Assembly (NCBI GenBank): GCA_036275915.1
Contig: DASUCV010000018.1
Span: 417,054 to 481,053 of the forward strand
DNA from: Candidatus Polarisedimenticolaceae bacterium
Lineage (GTDB): Bacteria > Acidobacteriota > Polarisedimenticolia > Polarisedimenticolales > DASRJG01
Reading direction: 5' to 3'
DNA length: 64,000 nt
The notes below the pieces were generated by a model. It searched no databases and had not been told where the DNA came from. It saw only the letters and a list, made by a program, of their open reading frames with translations. How positions within the stretch are numbered: position 1 is the stretch's first letter; every line of letters begins with the position of its first letter. This document shows, in pieces, positions 40,704 through 45,494 of this stretch. The translations under genes were made by a program, and so were the position numbers.

Positions 40704-40733
40704 TTGACAATTCGATCGGCTTTCGCCTAACCT
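40704..40733 (+). promoter_or_regulatory. recA promoter
   Basis: TTGACA (40704-40709) and TAACCT (40728-40733) are separated by 18 bases; the start of transcription is expected near 40740, 50 bases before the recA ATG. The -10 lies inside a 14-base block, TTCGCCTAACCTCC (40722-40735), that recurs with one change at the lexA promoter. Confidence 0.6.
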
Positions 40734-40789
40734 CCGCGTGTCCTCGAAGCCGGGTCCCCCGGTCACTCGCCTCCCACGGAGATCTCCCA

Positions 40790-41911
40790 ATGTCGGTGGA
40801 ATCCAAGGAACGCACGAAAGCGGTGGAGAACGCGGTCTCCCAGATCGAGCGTCAATTCGGCAAGGGCTCGATCATGAAGCTCGGCGATCGGCAGGGGCTC
40901 GACGTCCCCGTCATCCCGACCTCCTCCCTCTCGGTCGACTTCGCCCTCGGCGTCGGCGGTATCCCCCGCGGCCGCGTCGTCGAGATCTTCGGGCCGGAGT
41001 CCTCGGGCAAAACCACCTTCGCCCTTCACGTCATCGCGGAGGCGCAGCGCCTCGGCGGGCTCGCGGCGTTCATCGACGCCGAGCACGCGCTCGACCCCGA
41101 GTACGCGAAGAAGCTCGGCTGCGACGTCGACAACCTCATGGTCTCGCAGCCCGACTCCGGCGAGCAGGCACTCGAGATTACCGAGATCCTGATCCGCTCC
41201 GGCGCCGTCGACATCGTCGTCGTCGACTCCGTCGCGGCGCTCGTCCCCAAGGCCGAGCTCGACGGCGAGATGGGCGACGCCCACGTCGGCCTCCAGGCGC
41301 GCCTCATGTCGCAAGCGCTCCGCAAGCTCACCGGCATCGTCGCCAAGAGCAAGACCGCCCTCCTCTTCATCAACCAGATCCGCGACAAGATCGGCGTCAT
41401 GTTCGGCAGCCCCGAGACGACCACCGGCGGCCGCGCCCTCAAGTTCTACGCCTCGATGCGCATCGACATCCGCCGCATCGGCGCCATCAAGGAAGGCGAA
41501 GAGACGACCGGCAGCCGCACGCGCCTGCGCGTCGTGAAGAACAAGGTCGCACCTCCGTTCCGCTCCGCGGAGTTCGACATCCTCTACGGCGAGGGCATCT
41601 CGAAGGAGGGCGACCTCTTGGACCTCGGCATCGCGCACCGCATCGTCGAGAAGTCCGGCTCGTGGTTCTCCTACGGCGAGATCCGCCTCGGCCAGGGCCG
41701 CGAGAACGCGCGCGTCTTCTTGAAGGACAACCCCGACCTCACCGCCGAGATCGACAAGAAGGTCCGCGCCGCCCTCGGCCTCATGAAGGGCGCGTCGAAC
41801 GGCGAGACCGCGGCTGCCTCCCCCGCCCCCACCGAGCCCGCACGCCCCGTGGCCGTCTCCGAACCGGCGCCGCGCCCGCGGCCCCGCCCCGAGGCCGTCC
41901 GCACGTCTTGA
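40790..41911 (+). CDS. recA: Recombinase RecA
   Basis: A 373-residue recombinase with Walker [10 protein letters not shown] (68-76), the L1-region sequence [18 protein letters not shown] and [21 protein letters not shown]. The last 50 residues are Ala/Pro-rich and variable. RecA forms filaments on single-stranded DNA, drives strand exchange and triggers LexA self-cleavage; lexA is about 3 kb away in this window. The ATG at 40790 has GGAGATC upstream. It is followed by a hairpin and then tRNA-Phe on the same strand. Confidence 0.99.
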
Positions 41912-41959: not shown

Positions 41960-42035
41960 GGCTCGGTAGCTCAGTTGGTAGAGCGAGGGACTGAAAATCC
42001 CTGCGTCGGGGGTTCAATTCCCTCCCGAGCCACCA
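41960..42035 (+). tRNA. tRNA-Phe (GAA)
   Basis: A 76-base cloverleaf. The acceptor stem is GGCTCGG paired with CCGAGCC, the D arm is TAGCTCAGTTGGTAGAGC, the anticodon loop CTGAAAA has anticodon GAA, and the T arm has GGTTCAATTCC. The discriminator is A and CCA is encoded (42033-42035). No separate promoter is evident, and it may depend on the recA transcript or on a weak one. Confidence 0.97.
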
Positions 42036-44843: not shown

Positions 44844-45446
44844 TCAGTACTTGCGGATGAGGCCGACGACGACCCCTTGGATCTGGACGCGGTCGGCGGT
44901 GACGAGGATCGGCGGCATCGTCGGGTGCGACGGCTGCAGGCGCACCATCGGCCCCTCGCGGTAGAAGCGCTTGAGCGTGGCGTCGCTGCCGTCGACGAGC
45001 GCGACGACCGTCTCGCCTTCGCGCGCGATGTTCCGCTCTTCGATGATGACGTAGTCGCCCTCGCGGATGTGCTCGCCGACCATCGAGTCGCCCTGGATCT
45101 TGAGGACGAAGGTGCGGCCGCGGCCCGAGACCATGTCGGCGGGCACCGTGATCGTCTCGGTCGTCGGGACCGCTTCGAGCGGAAGGCCCGCGGCGATCGT
45201 TCCGACGAGCGGAAGCTCGATCGCGCGCCCGGACGACTCGCGCACGAGGTCGATCGAGCGGTTCTGATTCCAGACGCGCCGGACGAGACCCTTCTCGACG
45301 AGGTGGGTCACGTGCTTGTGCACGGTCGCGACCGAGGAGAGCCCGAGGGTGCCGCCGATCTCTTCGAGACTGGGCGAGTAGCCGTTGGTGTCGATGAAGC
45401 CCTGGATGACGTCGAGCACTTCGCGTTGCCGGCGGGTCAGTGCCAT
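44844..45446 (-). CDS. lexA: SOS-response repressor LexA
   Basis: A 200-residue repressor. The winged helix has GYSPSLEEIGGTLGLSSVAT. The self-cleavage site is Ala86-Gly87 in VGTIAAGLPLEA, with catalytic Ser121 (GDSMVGEHI) and Lys159 (DATLKRF). It should repress SOS genes until RecA filaments promote cleavage. ATG 45446 has GGGAGG upstream. It is the first gene of lexA-pabB-pabC. The promoter (TTGAGT-17-TAATCT) overlaps a 14-base block shared with recA, a candidate LexA operator in this lineage. Confidence 0.97.
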   Translation of the reverse strand: MALTRRQREVLDVIQGFIDTNGYSPSLEEIGGTLGLSSVATVHKHVTHLVEKGLVRRVWNQNRSIDLVRESSGRAIELPLVGTIAAGLPLEAVPTTETITVPADMVSGRGRTFVLKIQGDSMVGEHIREGDYVIIEERNIAREGETVVALVDGSDATLKRFYREGPMVRLQPSHPTMPPILVTADRVQIQGVVVGLIRKY

Positions 45447-45463: not shown

Positions 45464-45494
45464 GGAGATTAGGCGAAGACGGGACGAAACTCAA
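45464..45494 (-). promoter_or_regulatory. lexA promoter with block shared with recA
   Basis: On the minus strand TTGAGT (45494-45489) and TAATCT (45471-45466) are 17 bases apart, so the leader is only about 13 bases. The -10 region reads TTCGCCTAATCTCC (45477-45464) and matches 13 of 14 bases of the recA -10 region. It is a candidate for LexA control, although it is not an obvious palindrome. Confidence 0.55.

Follow-up and report, generated by a model that had tools for sequence, protein, structure and literature searches.

A predicted direct-repeat LexA operator within the lexA and recA promoters of a Candidatus Polarisedimenticolaceae bacterium

The 14-nt block shared by the recA and lexA promoters of this bacterium is very probably a composite, in which TTCGC, the downstream half of a LexA operator built as a direct repeat, runs into a −10 box of the standard sigma-70 type. 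Judged from comparison of sequences, we are highly confident that the repeat itself, TTCGY-N6-TTCGC (period 11), is the predicted operator of LexA1 at both promoters. Within the window (the whole 64,000-nt stretch of DNA that was analyzed), the first-pass annotation had located the block correctly, as TTCGCCTAACCTCC at recA (40722-40735, +) and TTCGCCTAATCTCC at lexA (45477-45464, −), with 13 of 14 positions identical. As it had also proposed, both copies lie over the −10 box of a good promoter, namely TTGACA-N18-TAACCT for recA (spanning 40704-40733, +) and TTGAGT-N17-TAATCT for lexA (spanning 45494-45466, −). Its two suggested explanations, a LexA operator or a shared promoter type, each hold for one half of the block: TTCGC is the predicted operator half-site, and CTAAYCT is the shared −10 type. 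The features of the two loci are as follows.

40704-40709, + strand: recA −35 hexamer, TTGACA
40711-40715, + strand: upstream half of the predicted recA operator, TTCGA, at a distance of 11 nt from the second half-site
40722-40726, + strand: predicted recA operator, downstream half-site TTCGC, the first 5 bases of the block
40728-40733, + strand: recA −10 hexamer, TAACCT, in the 3′ part of the block; CTANNNT is the usual −10 context
40790-41911, + strand: recA (TIGR02012, 564 bits, cut-off 325)
41960-42032, + strand: tRNA gene, between recA and the next gene
44844-45446, − strand: lexA, encoding LexA1 (200 aa; TIGR00498, 191 bits, cut-off 111)
45466-45471, − strand: lexA −10 hexamer, TAATCT
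45473-45477, − strand: predicted lexA operator, downstream half-site TTCGC, the first 5 bases of the block
45484-45488, − strand: predicted lexA operator, upstream half-site TTCGT
45489-45494, − strand: lexA −35 hexamer, TTGAGT, in a TTGA-N1-3-TTCG-N6-7-TTCGC pattern

Apart from the tRNA, an Rfam search of the window returned no RNA elements. Back to back with recA is a good divergent promoter, TTGACATCAAAACGCTCGGTACCTATGCT (40650-40622, −), upstream of a lytic-transglycosylase-like gene.

Between the −35 and −10 boxes, both lexA (TTTCGtcccgtcTTCGC) and recA (ATTCGatcggctTTCGC) carry a direct repeat, TTCG-N7-TTCG, with a period of exactly 11. The block does contain one TTCGC, but it does not coincide with the predicted operator, which is the repeat at 40711-40726 (+) and 45488-45473 (−); the conserved unit, TTCG(A/T)-N6-TTCGC, reaches further upstream than had been drawn, and the 3′ part of the block is common −10 context. 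The direct repeat also accounts for the earlier remark that the block is not an obvious palindrome, and inspection of the recA and lexA promoters revealed no inverted repeat of the known LexA types.

The block was rejected as a self-standing motif, because its two halves behave differently. Across the whole 4,526,912-base assembly, TTCGCCTAAYCTCC has perfect matches only at recA and lexA, together with two sites at one mismatch (one directly upstream of an ECF-type sigma gene, the other by an unrelated secreted-protein gene) and 19 at two mismatches; the summed count of 23 is not far above the 16 obtained with a reversed-pattern control. Within the window, seven sites with up to three mismatches compare with 7.8 expected by chance, which is no excess, and the signal therefore comes from the perfect matches and where they lie.

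The case for a LexA operator is strong at lexA. Across the phylum, the lexA upstream regions of relatives carry TTCGC-N6-TTCGC between TTGAC and the −10 box, as in G005 (TTGACTTTCGCAGGCCTTTCGCCTAGCCT) and G007 (TTGACTTTCGCGGATCTTTCGCCTAGTGT). TTCG pairs spaced 11 nt apart occur in 23 of the 49 relatives' lexA upstream regions (shuffle mean 0.1, maximum 2; next spacing, 8), where the shuffles preserve base composition only and the related genomes are not independent, though they span dozens of families; with the relaxed TTYG, the count rises to 35 of 49, and no other spacing comes close. We then scored the window with a 17-position matrix built from 36 relatives' lexA sites. The own genome was excluded from it and its sites were unused, and since the training sites (scoring 16.4 to 28.1 bits) were chosen by a TTYR-N7-TTYR pattern, the matrix presumes the repeat. 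Among 127,968 window positions, the lexA 17-mer TTTCGTCCCGTCTTCGC (45489-45473, −) ranked first at 19.1 bits and the recA 17-mer ATTCGATCGGCTTTCGC (40710-40726, +) ranked second at 16.9 bits. The exact form TTCG-N7-TTCGCCTA has two occurrences genome-wide, one at recA and one at lexA, and the degenerate WTTCG-N7-TTCGC was found at 15 sites, with most of the 12 further ones lying inside coding sequence. The fourth-best score in the window, 12.4 bits, falls at recA 40721-40737 (+; TTTCGCCTAACCTCCGC), and recA may have a third, degenerate half-site another 11 nt downstream.

The 3′ part of the block belongs to the ordinary promoter of the lineage. The genome has 46 matches to TTGACA-N16-18-TANNNT versus seven to the reversed pattern, which indicates that most of the 46 are real promoters. 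A C precedes TANNNT in 29 of these and YCTA is present in 23, so that CTAAYCT is an ordinary −10 of the lineage. On these counts, the block might be a shared promoter type only, the −10 context of strong promoters, with no repressor involved; likewise, CGCCTA(A/C)YCT is kept at recA of G001, G002, and G004, where the repeat and the TTCGC halves are both missing. We consider this reading very unlikely, given that TTCGC precedes the −10 box in just one of the 46 promoters, that of recA, and that the repeat is reversed at imuA and sits upstream of the −35 at mraZ, and so is not part of the promoter. The refuting condition named in the first-pass annotation, a general −10 context, thus applies to CTAAYCT and fails for TTCGC: at TTGACA promoters of genes without an SOS function, CTANNNT is frequent, whereas the whole block is not common.

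For recA, the reading as a LexA operator rests on the site in this genome and on similar sites, spaced 10 nt apart, in three genera of one neighboring family (G003, G007, and G009), where the sequence is TTCG-N6-TTCGCC. Among the other relatives, only the downstream half-site is kept in G005, G006, and G008. G001, which lacks the repeat at recA as G002 and G004 do, is the only relative from the same family. Because the repeat is absent in these three, control of recA is not conserved; LexA control of this gene would come and go among relatives, with the −10 part persisting, and it is this persistence beside a varying repeat that made the block look like one unit. Such losses and half-losses, together with the weaker form of the upstream half-site at the own recA (TTCGA), are what one would expect if the lexA repeat were a LexA operator and the recA copy a decayed site or a chance match, with recA independent of LexA here. 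In Acidobacterium capsulatum, whose LexA box is said to read GTTC-N7-GTTC, recA is reportedly inducible from a promoter that has no LexA box, unlike the recA promoter here with its predicted site. We nevertheless regard LexA-independent recA as unlikely, because the recA repeat is the second-best site in the window, with the exact 11-nt spacing and in the same place as in lexA; the chance of a TTCG at one fixed position, as for its upstream half-site, is ∼0.0027.

The motif search suggested in the first-pass annotation, upstream of SOS genes in this genome and its relatives, gave a conserved site at lexA, a patchy one at recA, and one at dnaE2 in G064 (TTGATTTTCGCTTTTTCTTCGCCTACAAT). Besides the own recA and this dnaE2, the core SOS genes that carry the repeat include imuA in relatives. 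In a set of imuA upstream regions from 16 relatives, found as weak RecA matches, nine have TTCG-N7-TTCG (shuffle mean 0.19, maximum 3); seven relatives have a reverse-strand copy, and since both orientations occur, the repeat cannot be a promoter part there. Read by eye, the lexA and imuA sites of G067 and G079 have drifted together, to halves of the TTGCCGCC/TTACCGCC type. In G049, a site at gyrA conforms to the pattern, yet it scored only 3.2 bits and was rejected.

The repeat is also found outside the SOS set. The best of the 15 WTTCG-N7-TTCGC sites found in the own genome, TTTCGTTCTGTTTTCGC (G000:C11:114380-114396, 25.4 bits), lies upstream of mraZ, ∼45 nt upstream of the −35 (loci L127, L195, and L309). 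Similar sites are present in G001, G006, G007, G008, and G017. In all, seven of 28 genomes have the repeat upstream of mraZ, with a mode spacing of 11; it further occurs upstream of parA in two genomes (G009, L133; G001, L135) and upstream of XRE-type regulator genes in G005 (L138) and G007 (L141). These occurrences count against the LexA reading, as SOS control is not expected at such genes. Instead, the repeat could be recognized by a different regulator, such as a member of the XRE-type family whose genes are found near mraZ in this class, with lexA and recA among its targets. This is highly improbable in our view: conservation is best and widest at lexA and then at imuA and dnaE2, which are the core SOS set, and autoregulation is the rule for LexA. 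Downstream of the −10, the own mraZ promoter has GTGG repeats resembling MraZ boxes. In two distant families (G007, L130; G016, L225), the repeat precedes genes of apparently related secreted proteins, DUF1579-like by eye.

With LexA1 as the preferred regulator, the arrangement suggests how it might act. In our alignment, LexA1 has its helix-turn-helix, the Ala-Gly cleavage site, and the Ser/Lys dyad intact. The predicted operator would fill the spacer between the −35 and −10 boxes of lexA and recA, with a period of 11 nt, or about one helical turn; a LexA1 dimer would most likely occupy both half-sites, arranged in tandem on the same face of the helix. We infer from this layout that bound LexA1 would block RNA polymerase at both promoters, repressing lexA and recA, and that upon DNA damage, RecA filaments would trigger LexA1 self-cleavage and so induce both genes.

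Direct-repeat LexA boxes are already known in related bacteria, and what is new here is a predicted instance in this lineage. The alphaproteobacterial box is GTTC-N7-GTTC (PMC3323433, PMC8565304), and our positive control, the upstream region of a plasmid lexA of Cereibacter azotoformans, has GAAC-N7-GAAC-N7-GAAC, with three copies 11 nt apart. The repeat described here resembles that box in having two half-sites in direct orientation with a period of 11 over the lexA promoter. It differs in the half-site, which is (T/A)TTCGC with a conserved GC after TTC, mostly TTTCGC or ATTCGC; G is at the first position in ∼9% of the training sites. Since the half-site is not exactly GTTC, this is not the alphaproteobacterial box, but belongs to the wider kind of period-11 direct-repeat LexA operators. 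Outside the Alphaproteobacteria, the LexA motif of Balneolaeota is a direct repeat as well (PMC7739468), although its half-site and spacing (TTACACATATTTTWTACATA) differ from those here; among direct-repeat cases, the same paper cites the LexA box of Acidobacterium capsulatum, probably a member of the phylum to which the window belongs (Mazon et al. 2006, Microbiology 152:1109, doi 10.1099/mic.0.28376-0). The half-site TTTCG also resembles the GTTCG of the Gram-positive box GAAC-N4-GTTC, but that box and the Escherichia coli box CTGT-N8-ACAG are palindromes, and the repeat here is not.

On contig 10 (G000:C10:79600-88500, L087), a second LexA gene, lexA2 (TIGR00498, 165 bits), is the first gene of a cassette; behind it come genes for a protein matching ImuA weakly, a Y-family protein resembling ImuB, and DnaE2 (NF004225, 1332 bits). 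In place of the direct repeat, the cassette promoter has a palindrome, ACCATACAAATGTACGGTA, and relatives have palindromes of the CAGACATTTGTCTG type. In our alignment, the recognition region of LexA2 (FRSPQTAREHLDAL) is closer to that of E. coli LexA (FRSPNAAEEHLKAL) than is that of LexA1 (SSVATVHKHVTHL). From the two recognition regions and the two types of promoter site, the two paralogs appear to be served by different operators in one genome, LexA1 by a direct repeat and LexA2 by a palindrome.

These analyses provide a concrete predicted SOS operator in a lineage that has received little study, separate operator from promoter inside one block, and explain a non-palindromic motif. They also extend, by many lexA promoters, what is on record about LexA sites changing while their half-sites stay similar, and the predicted sites indicate that two LexA paralogs of one genome differ in the symmetry of their sites. 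Alongside an apparent split in which LexA2 would govern the mutagenesis cassette through its palindrome, the mraZ repeat may, as a tentative and rather doubtful suggestion, connect the cell-division gene cluster with LexA1 or with some other regulator that reads the LexA1 site; if true, this would amount to a link from SOS to division without a SulA-type inhibitor.
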